A stretch of 64,000 bases of DNA from Prosthecobacter sp. (lineage in GTDB: Bacteria; Verrucomicrobiota; Verrucomicrobiia; Verrucomicrobiales; Verrucomicrobiaceae): NCBI GenBank assembly GCA_021733925.1, contig JAIPJY010000027.1, positions 23,581-87,580 on the forward strand, read 5' to 3'. Shown in pieces: positions 4,396 through 14,414 of the stretch. Under the pieces are notes generated by a model that was not told where the DNA came from, did no database searches, and saw nothing but the letters and a program-made list of their open reading frames with translations. Position 1 is the first letter of the stretch. Each line of letters opens with the position of its first letter. Made by a program: the position numbers and the translations under genes.

Positions 4396-6143
4396 CGTGA
4401 AGCAGATTTGAAATCAAGCGTGCGAAACTGGGCGGGGCCAGTTGGAAGATGCACACGCACATGAATGACACGGCCTTTGACGGGTATCTGTACTTCGTGC
4501 GTCTGCCAGTCGTCATTGGCCTTCACTTCAAACGGGACGCGATTCGCAGGGAGGAAGTCTTTGTCTCCGTCCATGCGCCAGGCGACAGCCCCCTGACCAG
4601 ATGCAGCGGTTTTGAAGGTGACTTTGGCAGTAACAGGGCCCGCGAGTTTGAGCTGGCTGCGCGTGATGAACATACCTTTGCCGCCTTTGTCCGGTGTGAG
4701 CACAAGAACGCCCTCTTTGTCGATCAAGCTGCCGCCACGCGCGAGCCAGCCGCTCGTGCCGGTGCCTTCGGGTTCGGGCTTCGGTGCGGGTTTGCCTTCG
4801 AGGTAGTAGTCGAAGTAGTCATTCCAAACCTTTGCCATCGGTCCAAGAGCAAGGCCGGGTGGATTGAGCTCCGCGCACCACGCCGTGAGCTTCGTGCGCA
4901 GACGTGCGGCGACATCAGGATGCTGCGAGGCGAGGTTGTGCTTCTCCTCCAGATCCGTGGAGAGGTCGTAGAGATACTCGCGCTCACCACCGCGCAGAAG
5001 TTTCCAGTTTCCCTCGCGGATGGCGCTCTGAGCCATCCAGCGCCACATCAGCGCCTCATGCGGCGCAGTGGTGATCTCGCCTTTGAGATAAGGAACCAGA
5101 TTCACCCCGTCGAGGTCTCCGGGCTTCACGGAAATGCCCGCCAAAGAAGCAGCCGTGGCGGCGACATCAAGCGCGCTCACGGGATGCTCGTACGTCTGGC
5201 CACCGCGAATCGTGCCGGGCCACGAGATGAGAAACGGCACATGCATGCCGCCTTCGGCCAGCATGCCTTTTTCACCATTGAGCGGTGTGTTCAGGCTGCC
5301 ATCCCAGCCACCGGCGTCGCCATCCAGTGGCGAGTCGGTCTTGAGGATCTTCAGCGGCGCGCCGTTGTCACCGATGACGAAGATGAGCGTCTTCTCAGTG
5401 AGGCCGTTTGTTTTCAGCGTGCTCGTGATGAGCCTCACCCCATCATCCACAGCGGCCAGCATGCCCAGCGCGGCGCGGCGGCGCTCAGGCATCGCTCCGG
5501 GAAAGCGTTCCTTGTACGACTGGGGCGCATCCAGCGGTGTGTGCGGGGCACGGAAGGCAATGTAAAGAAAGAAGGGCTGCTCCTTGTAGCGCTCGATGAT
5601 CGATGCCGCCGCCTTTGCGCAACCATCCACATGATACATCGTCGGCGGCAGATCTCCCATTGGCTTGTCCTTGCCCTCAAGCGTGATGTTGGCGGAAAAC
5701 CTCTGCTGGCCGTGTTGCGCAAAGGAATGCGTGAAACCGTGCATCGGGATCTCCGCCATGGGGCCCAGGTGCCATTTGCCAAACTGCGCCGTCACATACC
5801 CTGAACGCTGCAGGCGCGTGGCGATGGTGGTTTCCTTGTCGAAGCCCTCCAGCGAGGAGTTGTTGCTGTCTAGATTGAAGCGCCCTTGGAACTTCCCCGT
5901 CATCAATCCACCACGCGAAGGCACGCACTGCGGCGCGCTGCTGTAACCATGTTTGGCAACGACGCCGCTGCGGGCCAGCGCATCGAGATGCGGCGTTTTC
6001 ACATCCGGCTCCACGCCACGGATGCCAAGATCGGCAAAGCCGTGGTCATCCGTGTAAATGACGATGATGTTGGGTTTCTCGGCGGAGTTGGCTGAAACAA
6101 CCAAGCTGCTGAACGATAAAAAATAGACGAGGAGGCGCTTCAT
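4392..6143 (-). CDS. type I sulfatase (CVPSR) with C-terminal beta-sandwich-like domain
   Basis: This secreted sulfatase has 583 residues: signal peptide 1-20, [17 protein letters not shown] at 24-40, and a formylglycine motif C-V-P-S-R with Cys73, the serine-proline variant that FGE accepts. GKWHLGPM and IGDNGAP mark the remaining metal and substrate sites. The last roughly 120 residues form an accessory domain homologous to that of the downstream sulfatase, probably a carbohydrate-contact or structural sandwich. Start and stop overlap its two sulfatase neighbours by four bases each (ATGA at 6140-6143 and 4392-4395), indicating one transcript with coupled translation. Confidence 0.92.
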
Positions 6144-7549
6144 GGGCGATTTTTCTTCTTGGGCGGCATCAGTGCGTTGGCTTCATTGTCCACATGGCCG
6201 GGCACCACGGCGTCTTTGAGGAACTCGGCCAGCCTGGCGCGCATAACGGCGGTGCGTTCAGGCTCTTGAGCAGCGAGGTTTTCTTTCTCGCCGATGTCCG
6301 TGGCAAGGTTGTAGAGTGCGAGAGTTTCACCGGATTCAGCGGCCTTCGCTTTGCCCTTTTTGCCTCTCGCCTTGGGAGCTCCTTCGCTGTCGGTAGTGCC
6401 GCCGTTCATGACGAGCTTCCAGTCACCCATGCGCAAGGCGGCGACGGTGAGGGATTGAACACACAGGATGGCGTCGTGCGGAGACGGTGCGCCTTGCGTG
6501 AGCATGGGCCATACGTCCTTGCCATCCAACTCGGTCTTCTGCTCCAGCGATCCTCCGGCGAGTTTTACCAGCGTGGGATACCAGTCCACCGTGTGCATGG
6601 GCTCCTTGATGCGCTTGCCTGCCGGAATGTGTCCGGGCCAGTTCGCAAAGGCACAGCCGCGCACGCCGCCTTCATAGATGCTGCCCTTGAAGCCGCGCAG
6701 CGGGGTGTTGTCACCTGGAGGCGGGCCGCCGTTGTCGGTAGAGAAGATGATGAGCGTGTTGTCACGCTGGCCGGTGCTTTCCAAAGCGGCGACGATTTGC
6801 CCGATGGCCTCGTCTACGGCCGCCAGCATGCCGGCGAGTTTTTGCCGGTTGCCCTTCAGCTCACCATAGGGCTTGAGATATTCATCCGGTGTCTGAAAGG
6901 GTGAGTGCACAGCATTGAACGGCACGTAGATAAAGAGTGGTTTTGCTTTGTCTTTTTCCGTGATGATGCGGCAGGCCTCACGCGCGATGAGGTGCGTGGT
7001 GTAGCCTTCCTCCTTGAGCAGCTCGCCTTCCTGGTACCAGTCGAGATCCTCGCCGCGCAGGTGGGTGAAGTAGTCGAGCATGCCAAAATAATGACCGTAT
7101 TGGTGGTCAAAACCGCGTGCCTTGGGCAGGTAGGCGGGCTCAAACTCACCGAGGTGCCACTTGCCAGTGATGGCGGTGGCGTAGCCCGCATCATGCAGCG
7201 CATTGGCCAGCGTGCGTTCGGTAAGCGGCAGACCCCACGACGCATGCGGGCGCACGATGGTATAAACACCCGTGTGCGTGGCGTAGCGGCCGGTCATCAG
7301 CGTCGCACGCGTGGGCGAGCACACCGGCTGCACGTAGAGCGAATCCAGCACGGTGCCCTCAGCCGCCAGTTTGTCGATGCTGGGCGTGTGGATTTCCTTG
7401 CCGCCATTGAAGCCGCAGTCCGCATAGCCGAGATCGTCAATGAGCAGAAAGACGATGTTGGGTTGTTTCTCGGCAGCGAATGATGCCGCCGGAGTGAAGA
7501 CTGAGGCAAGCAGCAGGGCGAGTGCGAAGGCGCAGCGGTGGGATTTCAT
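6140..7549 (-). CDS. type I sulfatase (arylsulfatase B-like)
   Basis: This sulfatase has 469 residues. The start chosen is the ATG at 7549, which gives a clean signal peptide (MKSHRCAFALALLLASVF, cleavage after ASFA); a longer frame upstream has no secretion signal. It carries PNIVFLLIDDLGYAD, the formylglycine motif C-S-P-T-R (Cys77), GKWHLGEF and FSTDNGGPP. It resembles the arylsulfatase A/B group. It is the second gene of the four-sulfatase minus-strand cluster, 37 bp after the preceding stop, and overlaps the next gene by ATGA. A low-complexity Lys/Ala/Gly insert (ARGKKGKAKAAES) sits at about residue 415. Confidence 0.92.
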   Translation of the reverse strand: MKSHRCAFALALLLASVFTPAASFAAEKQPNIVFLLIDDLGYADCGFNGGKEIHTPSIDKLAAEGTVLDSLYVQPVCSPTRATLMTGRYATHTGVYTIVRPHASWGLPLTERTLANALHDAGYATAITGKWHLGEFEPAYLPKARGFDHQYGHYFGMLDYFTHLRGEDLDWYQEGELLKEEGYTTHLIAREACRIITEKDKAKPLFIYVPFNAVHSPFQTPDEYLKPYGELKGNRQKLAGMLAAVDEAIGQIVAALESTGQRDNTLIIFSTDNGGPPPGDNTPLRGFKGSIYEGGVRGCAFANWPGHIPAGKRIKEPMHTVDWYPTLVKLAGGSLEQKTELDGKDVWPMLTQGAPSPHDAILCVQSLTVAALRMGDWKLVMNGGTTDSEGAPKARGKKGKAKAAESGETLALYNLATDIGEKENLAAQEPERTAVMRARLAEFLKDAVVPGHVDNEANALMPPKKKNRP

Positions 7550-7586
7550 GAGATGGGTTGGATGGAGAGAGAGCAGGCAGGTCTGG

Positions 7587-9011
7587 TTATTTCTTGCCGC
7601 CGTCTTTCGGTTTCTTCTGTTTGTCTGCACCGGGATCAAGCATCGTGACAGGCTGGCCGATCAGCAGAGGCGTACCGAAGACAGTTTGCTGGTCGCCTTG
7701 CTGCTGCATCCACGCATCCACTTCGCCACGCAACAGCGTGAGGCGCTCGGTTTGCGCAGGGCCACCCGCAAGGTTGTTCAGTTCGAAAGGGTCGCTCTTG
7801 AGGTCGTAGAGCTCCTCCGACGGACGTTCGGCGCAGCGTTTCACCACGGCGGCAGCGGCGGGGCTGGTTTTTGCCGCGGTGAGCCAGCTCTGCCAGTAGG
7901 CAAACCCGCTCGTACTCTTGCTGGAGCGTGAGATGTGGGATTGATGCTGAAACTCGGGGTGCAGGTTGCGAATGTACTTCCAGTCACGCGTGCGGACGCT
8001 GCGGATGGGATACACATTGAAGTCACCATCGCCGCTATGCGTGGTGAAGATGCGGTCCCGATGTGTCATAACCGTGCCGCGCAGGACACCGGCGAAAGAC
8101 TTGCCGTCGATGCCCTCAGGCACCGTGCCGCCGCCGAGTTCGATGAAGGTGGGCAGCAGGTCCGGCCATGAAATCATGGCGTCGCTGGTGGAAGCCGCTT
8201 TCAAATGGCCCGGCCACGCCGCGATGAACGGGATGCGGATGCCCGCATCATAGAGATTCCATTTCCCAAACGGCCACTGCCCGCCGTGGTCGGCGGTGTA
8301 GATGAAGAGCGTGTCTCCCGGCACCTTGTCCTTGGCCAGCGCACGCAGTTCACCGAGCAGGATGTCCGCACGCGTGATGTCCGAGGTGTAGCGCGTTCGC
8401 TGCTCTCGCGTTTCCGCCGTGACCAAATGCGTGGGCGGCAGTTGGAGTGCGGCCGCGTCATAGCCTGCGTTTTCACCCCAGGGCACATGCGGATGCCGCG
8501 TGCCGAAGAACAGGCACAGCGGCTTGGACGCATCGCGATTGGCGAGGAACTTCGCGACTTCGACCGTGTCGGTGTCACCGATCTGATTGCCCCCCAGGAC
8601 ATCGAACCCATGGTCCTTGCCGTAGTTTCCATGCGCGACTTTGCCAAACGCCGCGACCTCGTACCCCAGCGCATGCAGTGCAGGCGGCAGCGAGGGCACC
8701 CCGGGGTTTTTCGCCTTGTGATTCGGCTCCGCCCCATTGCGTGCCGGCCACAGGCCCGTGCACAGCGTCGTGCGGCTGGGACCACAGGCTGGTGAGGCGA
8801 CAAAGGCATGTGTGAACTTCATGCCTTCCGCAGCAAGCCTGGCCATGTTCGGCGTGCGAATATCCGTGGCCCCATAAGGCTCCGAATCCAGCATGCTGTG
8901 ATCATCCGAGATGAACACGACAATGTTCGGCAGCGCCGAGGTTTTCTCGGCGGCGAACAGCGGCAGGCTCAGAAAGAAGGCAGCAAGGAGCGCATAGGGC
9001 TGGATGGACAT
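7587..9011 (-). CDS. type I sulfatase (sulfamidase/SGSH-like, CGPSR)
   Basis: This secreted sulfatase has 474 residues counted from ATG 9011, which yields a good signal peptide (MSIQPYALLAAFFLSLPLFA); the frame opens further upstream without one. The pattern ISDDHSMLD, then YGATDIRTPNMARLAAEG, the formylglycine motif C-G-P-S-R (Cys76), and TADHGGQWPFGKWNLYDAG resembles N-sulfoglucosamine sulfohydrolases and related heparan-type sulfatases, so an N- or O-sulfate of an amino sugar is a reasonable but unproven substrate. It is the first gene of the four-sulfatase operon, divergent from the TPR gene starting at 9116, so the promoter probably lies in 9012-9115. Confidence 0.9.
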   Translation of the reverse strand: MSIQPYALLAAFFLSLPLFAAEKTSALPNIVVFISDDHSMLDSEPYGATDIRTPNMARLAAEGMKFTHAFVASPACGPSRTTLCTGLWPARNGAEPNHKAKNPGVPSLPPALHALGYEVAAFGKVAHGNYGKDHGFDVLGGNQIGDTDTVEVAKFLANRDASKPLCLFFGTRHPHVPWGENAGYDAAALQLPPTHLVTAETREQRTRYTSDITRADILLGELRALAKDKVPGDTLFIYTADHGGQWPFGKWNLYDAGIRIPFIAAWPGHLKAASTSDAMISWPDLLPTFIELGGGTVPEGIDGKSFAGVLRGTVMTHRDRIFTTHSGDGDFNVYPIRSVRTRDWKYIRNLHPEFQHQSHISRSSKSTSGFAYWQSWLTAAKTSPAAAAVVKRCAERPSEELYDLKSDPFELNNLAGGPAQTERLTLLRGEVDAWMQQQGDQQTVFGTPLLIGQPVTMLDPGADKQKKPKDGGKK

Positions 9012-9115
9012 TCGCCAGTAACGAACGGTCTTGCCGCAACATCTCAGCAAATGCATGCCCGATGCGGAAAGCACAGTCCGGCTGGACTCCTCCCAATGGC
9101 CGTTCACATTGAATC

Positions 9116-10168
9116 ATGGCCATAGCTATCGAAGCATTTACTGTCGTGGTTAGAAATGAGGCAGTTCAACACCGGTATCCTGGAGGGGCGGAGGCGTTTC
9201 TAATGAATGTACCGAACAATACATTCTGTGCAGATGACTCACTTTCCCGTGTCGACTTTATGGTCGAAAGCGATGCCAAAATGTTCTTTGATGAATTGGA
9301 GTCACTTGGGCTTGATATGAGTGGCGGGAAAGACGCGGTCATCTGCGATGCTTTCCATCAGGAAATCAGGCCCGATTGTGACTGGCTTCAAATGGGCAAA
9401 TACAAACAAGGAACTATTGCCTGGATTGAAGGGGAGGAAGTTAAGACCATCATCGGGCCGCCGGGATGGGACCCAGAGGTCCAGCGATTGAACTATGCCA
9501 CTATCGAAGAAGCGGCCAAACGTCTCAAATATCTCCGCAATGACGACAATGTGCAGGTTTTCTGGGATACCGTGGCGGAGAGAGAAGTTTTCGTCGGCAG
9601 GACGCAGGTGCCTTTGGACATGCTGTTTCAACAAGCGGGAGCCATCGTGACGGCAAATTTAAGAAATCCGGGTTCATCACCTGCCCCCGCTGAAGCTGCG
9701 ATCGAACTTCAACGAGCCATCGAAATGCTGGAGACCGTCGTGGAGCGCGCCCCTGACAGTTGGCGTGCGCACTGGATGCTAGGCAAAGCATGGCATGCAC
9801 TTGGAAAGTCAGAGCTGGCATTTGTGTCGCTCAGCAAAGCGTTTGAACTCGAAAAGCAGGAATCCGTGATTCCAAGAGAGCTCTGTGGCATTTGTCTGGA
9901 ACTCGGGCGCGGAAATGAGGCCGTACGTGTTTCAGAACATGCGATTGGCTTGGAGCCGCAAAATCCGGAATTGCTCGGCAACCTTGCCATCGCTCATCTA
10001 ATTGATGGAAAGCACAAGGAGGCGGAAACAACAATCGATGCCGCATTGAAACAAAATCAAAATGACCCCGTCAACCAAGCACTGCGGCGAATCATCACCG
10101 AAGTCGTGAAAGGCAGGCGAACCCAGCCACGAAATTTGTTTGATCTAACTGGAGCACGGAAAAGCTAA
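9116..10168 (+). CDS. TPR-repeat protein with an uncharacterised N-terminal domain
   Basis: This 350-residue cytosolic-looking protein has no signal peptide. Residues 1-155 form a domain I do not recognise (it includes CDWLQMGKYKQGTIAWIEGEE and a FVGRTQVPLDMLFQQ segment). Residues about 190-325 contain tetratricopeptide repeats, visible as SWRAHWMLGKAWHALGKSE, then a second helix pair ending ALEPQNPE-like, then LLGNLAIAHLIDGKHKEAE. A role as a protein-interaction scaffold is inferred from the TPRs only. The base composition is lower in GC than in the flanking sulfatases, which may indicate separate ancestry. It is divergent from the sulfatase operon. Confidence 0.75.
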   Translation: MAIAIEAFTVVVRNEAVQHRYPGGAEAFLMNVPNNTFCADDSLSRVDFMVESDAKMFFDELESLGLDMSGGKDAVICDAFHQEIRPDCDWLQMGKYKQGTIAWIEGEEVKTIIGPPGWDPEVQRLNYATIEEAAKRLKYLRNDDNVQVFWDTVAEREVFVGRTQVPLDMLFQQAGAIVTANLRNPGSSPAPAEAAIELQRAIEMLETVVERAPDSWRAHWMLGKAWHALGKSELAFVSLSKAFELEKQESVIPRELCGICLELGRGNEAVRVSEHAIGLEPQNPELLGNLAIAHLIDGKHKEAETTIDAALKQNQNDPVNQALRRIITEVVKGRRTQPRNLFDLTGARKS

Positions 10169-10240: not shown

Positions 10241-10290
10241 GCCACTGGCGAGTCGTAGCCGAGCATGGTGTCGAACTTGGCTTGCCTTTC
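10241..10290 (-). pseudogene. decayed C-terminal fragment of a cytochrome P450
   Basis: On the minus strand this stretch translates as ERQAKFDTMLGYDSPVA, which lines up with the extreme C-terminus of the intact P450 further right (EHEAKFDRTLGYNSLVV). About 41 of 57 aligned bases are identical and many differences fall at third positions, so the copy came from a coding paralog rather than by a recent exact duplication. No heme-binding region or other P450 part is present upstream of it; the Whirly-like gene lies there instead. It is too short to be functional. Confidence 0.65.
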
Positions 10291-10317: not shown

Positions 10318-10791
10318 ATGAATTCGAAATCGACCGCCAGCTCCTCGTCTTCCGCCACCCCCAAGCAGTCCGCCGAATACGCCATCTACAAGCCCAACGG
10401 CCGTGGCACCGGCGGTGTGATCCGTCTGGAGTTCAACCGCACCAAAGGCGCTGTCTTTGTGGACGCGGCCTCCCAGAGCGGGGAGAAGCAGTTCGACTGG
10501 GAGCAGAAGATCACCATGAAATGGGGTCTCTCAGATCTCGGCACCGTGCTGGCCACGCTGCAAGGCCGCCAGGAGCAGGCGAAGCTCTTCCACCAGTCTG
10601 AAAAGGCCAACAGCGCCTTCGAACTGACCTTTCGCGATGATCCGCAGAAGGCGCCGTACTTCATGAGCATGTCACGCCAGGACGCGGCGTCGAAAAGCGT
10701 GAAGAAGGTCACGATTCCCGTCACGCATTCCGAGGCCGTGATCCTCGAAACCGCGCTGCGGGCGGCGATCACACGGCTGATCGGGTGGTGA
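10318..10791 (+). CDS. Whirly-like single-stranded DNA-binding protein
   Basis: This is a 157-residue protein. The ATG at 10318 is preferred over an upstream in-frame start at 10282 because the first part of that longer frame overlaps a P450 remnant. After a Ser/Ala-rich lead, residues about 22-157 match the layout of the plant Whirly ssDNA-binding fold: AIYKPNGRGTGGVIRLEF, then KQFDWEQKITMKWGLSDLGTVLATL (written here in two parts: KQFDWEQK and LSDLGTVLATL), LFHQSE, YFMSMSRQD, and a closing IPVTHSEAVILETAL ending RLIGW, as in Whirly proteins that end LMGW/LLGW. Assignment rests on motif order seen by eye. Possible roles, all inferred, are nucleoid organisation, DNA repair or transcription. 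It is convergent with the P450 gene. Confidence 0.6.
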   Translation: MNSKSTASSSSSATPKQSAEYAIYKPNGRGTGGVIRLEFNRTKGAVFVDAASQSGEKQFDWEQKITMKWGLSDLGTVLATLQGRQEQAKLFHQSEKANSAFELTFRDDPQKAPYFMSMSRQDAASKSVKKVTIPVTHSEAVILETALRAAITRLIGW

Positions 10792-12040: not shown

Positions 12041-13438
12041 TCACTTCTTTTTCGCCTTGCCTGCTTTTGCTGCGGGCTTCGGAGGTGCGGTGGGGTCTTC
12101 GCTTGGGCTGCCATGCCACTGCGGCGCGATGTTTTTGGCATTCCACTCGTCCCAGGCCTTGGAGAGTTGAGTGACGAGCTCGGGCTTGGCAGCGGCGAGG
12201 TCGTGCTGCTCGCCGATGTCGGTGCTCAGATCGTAAAGCTGCCAGCCGGACTCGGTTTTGGCGTCCATGTCGCGCACATCGACGAGTTTCCAGTTCCCCT
12301 GGCGGATGGCTTTCTGGGGGCCGAAACGCCAGGCGAGAGTGTTGTGCGGTGCGGTGGTGATTTCACCTTTGAGATACGGCAGGAGATTCACGCCTTCGAC
12401 GCCATCGGGCTGAGGTGCGCCGGTGACGGCGCAGGCGGTGGGCAGGATGTCCATGGCGCTCACCGGTTGATCATAAGTGGTCCCTGCAGCCAGCTTGCCG
12501 GGCCAGCTCACGAAAAACGGCACGCGAATGCCGCCTTCGAGCGTCTGGCCTTTGTCGCCACGCAGTGGAGTGTTGAGACCCGTGTTGTAGGCAAAGAAGG
12601 GCTTCCTGCCGGAGCCGCCGTTGTCGCCGAAGAAAAACACGAGGGTGTTTGGGTGCTTGGCCTTCAGTTCGGCGGTGATGCGACCTACGTCATCGTCCAG
12701 CCCCAGAAGCAGCGAAAGGTAACCGCGACGATTTGGATCGGTGACATCGGCAGGAATGCGGTCCTTGAGCTTGTCGGCAATCTCCAGCGGTGTGTGGACG
12801 GCGTTGTAGGCAAGGTAAATGAACCAAGGCTTGGCCGCGTTGCGGCTCATGAAGCTGAGAGACTCATCAGTGAACAGATCCGTCGTATAACCATCGATAT
12901 GCTGCAGCTCGCGACCACGGTAGATCATGTTGTGCGAATGGGCGGAGCCGAACTCGGGATCCGCATCCTTGTGAAGCAGGAAGTTGTGCCCGCCGACGAG
13001 AAAGCCGGTGAACTCGTCGAACCCACGTGACTGCGGATGATGCGCCGCATCGAAGCCCTGATGCCATTTGCCGAAGAGCGCCGTCGCGTAGCCCGCATCG
13101 TGCATCACGTTGGCGATCGTGCGCTGATCCAACGGCAGTCCCAGCGTGGCCTCATCACCGACATGCGGATTGAACTCATGCCCAAACCGCGTCTGCGATT
13201 TGCCCGTGAGAAACCCCGCCCGCGAAGGGCTGCAATATGGCGCGGTGACATAGCCATTCGTACACCGCACACTGTTGGCGGCCAGCGCGTCAATATTCGG
13301 CGTGGGCACTGCCTTGCCCCCCTGCACGCCAATGTCCGCGTAGCCAAGATCGTCGGCGACGATGACGAGAATGTTCGGCTGCGAAGCAGCAGAGATCGAA
13401 GTGCAAGCGGCGAAGAGGAGCAGAGCGAGACGTTTCAT
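12041..13438 (-). CDS. type I sulfatase (CSPSR)
   Basis: This secreted sulfatase has 465 residues counted from ATG 13438, which opens a signal peptide (MKRLALLLFAACTSISA); the frame continues upstream without a plausible leader and would overlap the divergent antitoxin gene. Motifs are PNILVIVADDLGYADIG, the formylglycine site C-S-P-S-R (Cys69), GKWHQGF and FFGDNGGSG. The C-terminus is a Lys/Ala/Pro-rich tail (PKPAAKAGKAKKK), as in several other sulfatases here, which may help it adhere to anionic surfaces. It is likely the first gene of a two-gene unit with the P450 and is divergent from the AbiEii-type module. Confidence 0.92.
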   Translation of the reverse strand: MKRLALLLFAACTSISAASQPNILVIVADDLGYADIGVQGGKAVPTPNIDALAANSVRCTNGYVTAPYCSPSRAGFLTGKSQTRFGHEFNPHVGDEATLGLPLDQRTIANVMHDAGYATALFGKWHQGFDAAHHPQSRGFDEFTGFLVGGHNFLLHKDADPEFGSAHSHNMIYRGRELQHIDGYTTDLFTDESLSFMSRNAAKPWFIYLAYNAVHTPLEIADKLKDRIPADVTDPNRRGYLSLLLGLDDDVGRITAELKAKHPNTLVFFFGDNGGSGRKPFFAYNTGLNTPLRGDKGQTLEGGIRVPFFVSWPGKLAAGTTYDQPVSAMDILPTACAVTGAPQPDGVEGVNLLPYLKGEITTAPHNTLAWRFGPQKAIRQGNWKLVDVRDMDAKTESGWQLYDLSTDIGEQHDLAAAKPELVTQLSKAWDEWNAKNIAPQWHGSPSEDPTAPPKPAAKAGKAKKK

Positions 13439-13518
13439 GGGCGAGAGATAACGATGCAGAGAAGCAGTTCTGGCAGAGGAGAGTTGAGCTTTGGAGAGAG
13501 GCGTGTAGCCTTTACAAA

Positions 13519-13845
13519 ATGAAATCAGCAGCCCCAACCGCCCAAAAAGCGCGGACGCCTCTTGGGCTTCCGGCAGAATGGTTTTGGGATGTGAATCCTG
13601 CTCGGCTTAATCCTGACAAGCACGCAGCACAAATCATTGAGCGTGTGCTGGTCGTTGGTGCGATGGAAGGCTGGCGTGCCATTCGTCGGCACTATGGCGA
13701 TGAAAAACTTAGTGCGGTAGTAACTGGGCTGCGCTCGCTCAGTCCGCAGAATGTTGCCCTGCTCTGTCTGGCGCTGAACTTAAAAAAGGAGGATTTTAGA
13801 TGCTGCACAGCGAAGCCGTTCCCCCAGGCGCCCTGGCATTACTGA
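13519..13845 (+). CDS. DUF6922-like antitoxin partner of AbiEii toxin
   Basis: This small protein of 108 residues has the pattern WFWDVNPARLNPDKHAAQII, ERVL, GWRAIRRHYGDEKL and LSPQNVALLCLAL. That matches the DUF6922 proteins which precede AbiEii/AbiGii-type nucleotidyltransferase toxins. It probably neutralises or represses the downstream toxin. Its last 46 bases overlap the toxin start, and the tail after residue 90 (CCTAKPFPQ...) is outside the usual family length, so the stop may be displaced relative to close homologues. The promoter should be in the 80-bp gap to the divergent sulfatase. Confidence 0.7.
   Translation: MKSAAPTAQKARTPLGLPAEWFWDVNPARLNPDKHAAQIIERVLVVGAMEGWRAIRRHYGDEKLSAVVTGLRSLSPQNVALLCLALNLKKEDFRCCTAKPFPQAPWHY
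13787..13792 (+). promoter_or_regulatory. strong Shine-Dalgarno deciding the toxin start
   Basis: A perfect AGGAGG lies seven bases before the ATG at 13800 and inside the end of the antitoxin frame. Good Shine-Dalgarno sites are uncommon in this window, so this one fixes the start of the AbiEii-type gene and indicates independent ribosome loading despite the overlap. Confidence 0.8.
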
Positions 13846-14414
13846 AGAACCTGTGTGCGCACCAGGCCTTGGATGGTTTCGCCTTGGTGGGCGGGACCTC
13901 TCTGGCGCTGCGCTTCGGGCATCGCATGTCGGTGGATCTCGACTTTTTCCGGCCGGAGAAGTTCGACAACAAAGCCATTGCTGCGGCTCTCGCGGCAGAT
14001 TTCCCTTCATTCCAGCTCACCAACGACAACAGCAATGGCATGATGGCCTTTATTGAAAAGGTGAAGGTGGACTTTGTCACTTATCGCTACCCCCTGCTAC
14101 ATCCTTACGAAACCATTGAGGGCGTGCGAATGATGAGTCTGCAGGATGTGGTGGCCATGAAGCTGGGGGCCATCAGCAATCGTGGTGCGAAGAAGGACTT
14201 TTACGATCTGCACACGCTGCTCAAGGAAATCGGTCTGGATGAAATCCTGCGCTGCTATGCGCTCAAGTTTCCCAACCACGATTCCATGATTCCGCTGCGC
14301 AGCATGATCTACTTTGAAGACGCGGAGGAAACCGAGACTCCGAAGAGTCTCGGCAAAACCACCTGGGCCAAAGTCAAAGCGGACATTCTCAAGGCCGTGC
14401 GTCCGATGCTGTGA
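13800..14414 (+). CDS. nucleotidyltransferase AbiEii/AbiGii-type toxin
   Basis: This protein of 204 residues belongs to the AbiEii toxin family of nucleotidyltransferase-fold proteins, members of which add nucleotides to tRNA or other targets and cause abortive infection. The signature is intact: LVGGTSLALRFGHRMSVDLDFF (in two parts: GGTSLALRFGHR and SVDLDFF), the second acidic strand VKVDFVTY, and the conserved DVVAMKLGAISNRGAKKDFYDL helix region (AMKLGAI, RGAKKDFYDL). Together with the preceding DUF6922-like gene it forms a type IV-like toxin-antitoxin or phage-defence pair. It ends eight bases from the stop of the convergent large cytochrome gene. Confidence 0.88.
   Translation: MLHSEAVPPGALALLKNLCAHQALDGFALVGGTSLALRFGHRMSVDLDFFRPEKFDNKAIAAALAADFPSFQLTNDNSNGMMAFIEKVKVDFVTYRYPLLHPYETIEGVRMMSLQDVVAMKLGAISNRGAKKDFYDLHTLLKEIGLDEILRCYALKFPNHDSMIPLRSMIYFEDAEETETPKSLGKTTWAKVKADILKAVRPML

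Follow-up and report, generated by a model that had tools for sequence, protein, structure and literature searches.

A chromosomal Whirly homologue from Prosthecobacter within a larger prokaryotic family

The window analyzed here, a stretch of 64,000 nucleotides from a Prosthecobacter genome, encodes a sequence homologue of the plant Whirly proteins. It represents a chromosomal bacterial Whirly branch within a larger prokaryotic family that is undescribed in the literature searched. In the passages cited, two reviews describe Whirlies as specific or unique to the plant kingdom (PMC9070903, PMC6963530), and our search of the open-licence PMC literature, with subscription papers outside its scope, returned no description of a bacterial or plasmid Whirly in the text available there. 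The family is larger than these accounts suggest: it has several branches in bacteria, on plasmids, and in viral contigs and is not confined to plants.

The Whirly gene of the window and its product

The chromosomal Whirly gene, here termed type A, occupies 10318..10791 on the plus strand and runs from ATG to TGA, encoding 157 amino acids plus stop. An alternative upstream start, TTG at 10282, gives a longer reading of the ORF; five of the 80 fetched relatives (L014–L018) align across residues 1–157 from the ATG at 10318. The gene is real and under purifying selection, with dN/dS values of 0.02–0.30 against relatives in 20 of 20 comparisons. Its GC content (61.6%, window 60.4%) and the pI of the product (9.65) are as expected of a native gene encoding a nucleic-acid-binding protein. 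The 80 bacterial loci, taken from 106 relatives found, encode proteins 59–97% identical to the window protein, the closest among these 80 (92–97%) belonging to Verrucomicrobia, Verrucomicrobiaceae, and Prosthecobacter. The low-complexity N terminus (residues 1–17, 10318..10368, plus strand) is variable in relatives, with pLDDT below 50 at residues 1–3 and 6–15 of the predicted structure.

The Pfam family PF08536 (Whirly) matches residues 42–145 with 42.3 bits (cut-off 23, E 8e-11), and the remaining Pfam families all score below their own cut-offs. A phmmer search of the PDB (E ≤ 10) returned six matches, every one a plant Whirly (best E 1e-8). The same six came first with a profile of 90 relatives (E 5e-9 to 3e-7), followed by three unrelated weak matches starting at E 0.21 (nine in all). 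With a profile made solely from four plant Whirlies, the window protein scored 48.6 bits; the best of 2000 shuffled versions reached 7.8 bits, and the best other of 510 stop-to-stop ORFs in the window reached 4.6 bits. NCBIfam gives the protein no name, its sole match lying far under the cut-off.

We modeled the window protein as a single chain with AlphaFold2 from 90 sequences (pLDDT 88.8, pTM 0.80). The model comprises β-strands at residues 20–25, 33–40, 45–55, and 65–69, an α-helix at residues 71–81, a second set of β-strands at residues 87–93, 97–105, 114–122, and 128–135, and a C-terminal α-helix at residues 137–155. This ββββ-α-ββββ-α order is the Whirly topology, and the predicted structure assumes the Whirly fold of two antiparallel four-stranded sheets and two helices. 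Foldseek against the PDB gave 25 matches at E ≤ 0.001, consisting of 16 plant Whirly, seven MRP1/MRP2, and two PURA chains; the plant Whirlies occupy ranks 1–15 and 17 (best E 3e-9), and everything beyond these 25 has an E of 0.01 or worse. Identity in the fold alignment is ∼20% over the plant Whirly domain. An earlier note on this DNA had proposed the Whirly assignment from the letters and suggested, among other checks, a PF08536 profile search and an AlphaFold model of the 24-mer. The profile search and the single-chain model bear the assignment out, as do the PDB matches and the plant-only profile with its shuffle control. Neither a model lacking the fold nor a better match to another family, the outcomes the note had set against its claim, was found: no other Pfam family passes, and MRP1/MRP2 and PURA stand behind the plant proteins by fold.

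The likeness to plant Whirlies (WHY1/2/3, p24/PBF-2) thus covers both sequence homology over the domain and the predicted fold. The kinetoplastid proteins MRP1/MRP2 (gBP21/gBP25), which bind guide RNA as a heterotetramer, have the same fold by Foldseek (E about 1e-7). They differ from the window protein in lacking a sequence match, no MRP chain appearing in the PDB search (E ≤ 10) or the profile search. PUR-alpha/PURA is a distant Whirly-like fold (E 6e-4) that differs further, with a TM-score of 0.41–0.46 of the query and no Pfam match. Work by Graebsch in 2009 reportedly placed bacterial Bpur in the PUR-alpha/Whirly-like fold class, so that bacterial examples of the broader fold had been known before. 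SSB has an OB fold unrelated to Whirly; its likeness to the window protein lies in a probable shared substrate and in being a gene neighbor of the second chromosomal type described below. An SSB/OB-fold identity was rejected, as PF00436 does not match the window protein in the Pfam scan (E ≤ 10), and a known defense or phage family was rejected for want of any PADLOC or PHROG match.

All seven motifs listed in the earlier note are present in the translation of 10318–10791, in the order known from plants (GER/GVR-x-YDW...K, ...FFH/LFH, ...IPVT...E..., ...GW). The block QFDWEQKI (residues 58–65, 10489..10512, plus strand) corresponds to plant YDW(E/S)(K/R)K, and the C-terminal W157 (10786..10788, plus strand), equivalent to the plant ...GW, is invariant in type A. 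In 81 type-A rows, K25, P26, N27, G32, R36, F59, D60, W61, K64, H92, E139, and W157 are conserved at 100% and R29 at 98%. Two elements of plant Whirlies are absent, KGKAAL and the C-terminal tail. KGKAAL is required for the 24-mer of plant Whirlies. The first two strands and their loop (residues 20–40, 10375..10437, plus strand), placed by alignments and the model strands, take the position of plant YSIYKGKAAL and include Y-A-I-Y-K-P-N-G-R-G-T-G-G-V-I-R. In the alignment, the higher-plant motif YSIYKGKAALTVEP stands opposite YAIYKPNGRGTGGVIRLE of the window protein, which has KPNGRGTGGV in place of KGKAAL. As far as the cited passages go, KGKAAL is likewise missing from the WHIRLY-like proteins of green algae and liverworts (PMC9070903), indicating that the motif defines the higher-plant group and not the family, and plant Whirlies carry an acidic/aromatic tail (PMC6963530), whereas the window protein stops at GW157. 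Unlike its plant counterparts, the window protein is encoded on a bacterial chromosome, and the organelle target peptide of plant Whirlies is not expected in it.

Distribution and relatives on chromosomes, plasmids, and viral contigs

Our genome search was centered on the phylum of the window, and type A comprises 80 of the 106 relatives found by the contig scan, 79 of them from Verrucomicrobia members and one from an uncultured bacterium. Of the 48 genomes in the genus, 19 carry the gene, as do 48 of 239 in the order; its absence from the other 29 genomes of the genus indicates that the window-type gene is dispensable. Eighteen of the 19 carriers have a single match. The remaining one has two, which overlap and contain one internal TGA (G425:C62:2909–3348), reflecting a pseudogene or an assembly error.

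Other families of this phylum harbor a second chromosomal type; of 387 genomes searched, 52 gave a match, and this type accounts for 46 of them. Its two seeds, L012 and L013, carry FYHPN-(S/G)-KG-(S/T)-GSA(L/M)R(L/I)EPR at the place of KGKAAL, and PF08536 scores them just over (24.6 bits) and just under (22.5 bits) its cut-off, respectively.

IMG/VR contigs yielded nine loci of a viral-contig type, whose proteins share about 30% identity with the window protein. PF08536 recognizes L126 (25.1 bits, over the cut-off) and gives no Whirly match for L125 and L132. The L125 model (pLDDT 85.1) has the topology of the window protein, and its 23 Foldseek matches at E ≤ 0.001 comprise 16 plant Whirly and seven MRP chains, with the MRP chains first. 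In L127–L132, a conserved gene lies two positions upstream of Whirly; in L132 it matches HNH endonucleases. In the viral model library BFVD, the best Foldseek match of the window protein is the phage protein A0A6J5NR37 (E 2.4e-7, 141 amino acids, 20% identity), which bears the UniProt name “Whirly transcription factor.” Automatic annotation has already attached the Whirly name to a protein of a prokaryotic virus. The BFVD matches also include Gp208, Gp212, and Gp230 of Bacillus phage W.Ph., proteins of unknown function with a Whirly-like predicted fold. Plasmid-type relatives were not found in viral contigs, and searches of phage records with four queries likewise came back empty.

The plasmid type is more distant. 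Searched directly, the window protein gives weak plasmid matches (E 0.02–0.9), and the plasmid family was reached by iteration, with L136 as query (1178 records) and then a Methylibium protein (112 records). The proteins are longer at the N terminus (163–405 amino acids among those fetched). Five of 14 rows (Methylibium, Geoalkalibacter, Methylophaga, Polaromonas, and Acidithiobacillus) have an exact KAAL, and the remaining rows have variants such as RAAL, KAAV, and SAAL. The resemblance to KGKAAL extends beyond these four residues, as in IYGGKAALCF of Methylibium and IYGLKAALTVE of Polaromonas next to IYKGKAALTVE of plant Why1. PF08536 scores one of 11 plasmid proteins over its cut-off (L136, 24.2 bits) and nine under it (13–22.9 bits), and a profile of plant, type-A, and second-type rows gives 25–34 bits for the first four plasmid-type proteins. 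The plasmid type is thus linked to Whirly by iteration, motif, and combined profile and not by a direct strong match. A 163-residue hypothetical protein of the Escherichia coli IncC plasmid pSCEC2 (L157, 6935–7426), encoded between a 3′-5′ exonuclease and a Tus-like gene, has no PF08536 match and looks like a distant, weak plasmid-type relative on the evidence of one record. Many of the 1178 plasmid matches of L136 are probably this IncC-type protein.

Gene neighborhoods and proposed function

We consider it probable that the chromosomal bacterial Whirly is an accessory ssDNA-binding protein that protects the genome. The protein is homologous to plant Whirlies, has the predicted Whirly fold, is strongly conserved, and is single-copy where present. 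The window genome has one SSB gene, located on another contig, so that Whirly would be an addition to SSB. By analogy with its plant relatives, the window protein would form Whirly-type oligomers, tetramers at least, and bind ssDNA across its two β-sheets. Next to the ordinary SSB it may serve as a second ssDNA-binding protein with an accessory role, coating single strands that are laid open when forks stall or when DNA is repaired or recombined. Like plant Whirlies in organelles, it might in this way limit rearrangements mediated by short repeats.

The case for a role in DNA maintenance is drawn from the relatives (ssb, priA, gyrA, and the plasmid neighborhoods) and not from the window itself, in which the Whirly gene is a single-gene unit with no DNA-maintenance genes as neighbors. 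Upstream lies a TPR-repeat gene (9116–10168, plus strand; GC3 0.52 versus 0.73–0.83 in three neighbors), and a P450 gene on the other strand ends 4 bases away. The TPR-repeat gene recurs near Whirly in only two of 81 type-A loci (the window and L018) and the P450 gene in 15. Three sulfatase-like genes, recognized by eye, surround the locus on the minus strand (6140–7639, 7587–9107, and 12041–13537). Farther along is an overlapping gene pair on the plus strand (13519–13845 and 13800–14414) with no NCBIfam match, the second member of which resembles a toxin-antitoxin nucleotidyltransferase by eye.

Type A as a whole has no conserved partner operon, and no ssb gene was found near Whirly in 80 of 80 fetched loci. 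Three neighbors were singled out after inspection, in related genomes that are not independent: priA in 17 of 81 loci, 16 times on the opposite strand and in 13 of these within 300 bases in divergent orientation; gyrA on the same strand in six; and an RmuC-like gene in four, with an NCBIfam score of 136.9 against a cut-off of 810. The name PriA was checked on two loci and GyrA on one.

In 23 of 46 loci of the second chromosomal type, an ssb gene precedes Whirly on the same strand, no more than about 500 bases upstream; L189 has no upstream sequence. The pairing spans 13 family codes. It was seen in 18 of the first 20 loci and in five of the other 26; the first count is biased, because these 20 were mostly the best-scoring loci and the seeds L012 and L013 are themselves ssb-linked. 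The view of the second type as generally an ssb–whirly operon is weakened accordingly. Six of six linked ssb genes tested are PF00436 members, and PF00436 recovered all 18 of the first set. The 18 ssb-linked genomes have two or three SSB genes and the two unlinked genomes of that set have one, which makes the linked gene an additional SSB copy. Two conserved genes that belong to no known family precede ssb–whirly in seven and six of 29 loci (20 second-type and nine viral); in L154 they lie at 7477–8475 and 8472–9290 on the minus strand and match nothing in Pfam, PADLOC, or PHROG.

Of 15 fetched plasmid-type regions, 13 contain one or more genes annotated as replication initiator, ParA/ParB, helicase, exonuclease, or Tus-like, which are common genes on plasmids in general. 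The ssb profile found none in these 15 loci, a zero that is unsafe, as L135 is annotated with an SSB gene at a distance of 4.3 kb.

Several observations count against the proposed role: the fold is common to RNA binders (MRP1/2) and PURA, KGKAAL is missing, the gene is dispensable in the genus, the neighbors in the window are not DNA-maintenance genes, and the ssb link holds in only half of the second-type loci and in none of the 80 type-A loci fetched. Several other explanations were weighed. There is a small chance that the gene came from a mobile element (plasmid, ICE, or phage) and performs an element-like task on the chromosome, such as shielding incoming ssDNA. Its patchy presence in genus and order, its varying neighborhoods among type-A genomes, and the relatives on plasmids and in IMG/VR contigs would suit such an origin. 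Against this, its composition is native, purifying selection on it is strong across the genus, the window ORFs listed show neither an integrase nor a phage gene beside it, and the plasmid type is distant, with a best direct match of E 0.02.

It is unlikely, and a little more so, that the protein works mainly in transcription, as a regulator that binds single strands and so melts or marks promoters, instead of protecting DNA. A promoter-regulator role was first proposed for plant Whirly1 (PBF-2). PBF-2 shares the fold family (1l3a is among the PDB and Foldseek matches), and a single-gene unit without DNA-repair neighbors in the window would be in keeping with a regulator. The absence of a conserved partner operon across type A and the clustering of relatives with replication and ssDNA genes argue against it. 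An RNA binder like the MRP1/MRP2 guide-RNA annealing proteins seems slightly less probable still: MRP chains make up seven of the 25 fold matches of the window model and come first for L125, but plant Whirlies are the only sequence matches, and the ssb, priA, and gyrA neighborhoods point to DNA. Plant or algal contamination, or a recent transfer from such a source, for which the description of Whirlies as plant proteins in the cited passages (PMC9070903, PMC6963530) might speak, is extremely improbable given ∼20% identity over the plant domain versus 59–97% among the 80 bacterial loci, bacterial GC, a single open frame, and deep bacterial branches; plant contamination was rejected on the GC and on presence in 19 of 48 genus genomes.

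Placement of the plant proteins and implications

The earlier note expected a free-standing bacterial Whirly to bear on the origin of the plant family. The bacterial gene exists, but it belongs with others to a larger family, and the window gene does not by itself hold the key to that origin. Our trees, built without green-alga sequences, separate plants, type A, the second type, and the plasmid type well. In the first tree (63 rows), plants group with the plasmid type (95/93), with long branches flagged. The second tree (52 rows) contained 15 of 27 type-A, 14 of 20 second-type, five of six viral, and 14 plasmid rows, with the IncC row left out; it gave a plant plus plasmid-type split at 94/90, not starred, and in its AU test plants grouped with type A were not rejected (p 0.344). 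The four-plant profile scores type A highest (31–56 bits in 27 rows) and the plasmid type at 22 bits at most. As judged from these comparisons, profile scores would favor type A as nearest to plants, and the motif and the first tree would favor the plasmid type.

An endosymbiont route shows no sign among 14 control genomes, which are very few. PF08536 matched none of these 14 (ten named), which apparently include Synechococcus elongatus and Caulobacter vibrioides. The cited passage of another study reports no Whirly homologue in the cyanobacterium examined (PMC10909546).

A tentative scenario, which we regard as possible but doubtful, is that the Whirly family is bacterial in origin and diversified on chromosomes, conjugative plasmids, and phages as an ssDNA helper, and that an ancestor of green plants took a copy for its organelle DNA. 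The family would then have assisted ssDNA handling together with a second SSB, PriA, and plasmid replication, and the copy would have come from a bacterium or its mobile element. A bacterial origin would make KGKAAL older than plants.

With relatives from bacteria, plasmids, and viral contigs, the origin of plant Whirlies becomes testable by phylogeny. Being small and easy to handle, these proteins also lend themselves to comparisons of ssDNA binding in the presence and absence of KGKAAL. The ssb–whirly gene pairs offer a concrete hypothesis, namely that Whirly-fold proteins cooperate with SSB. If the DNA-protection role is true, the genome guarding known from plant organelles would also operate in free-living bacteria and on widespread plasmids.
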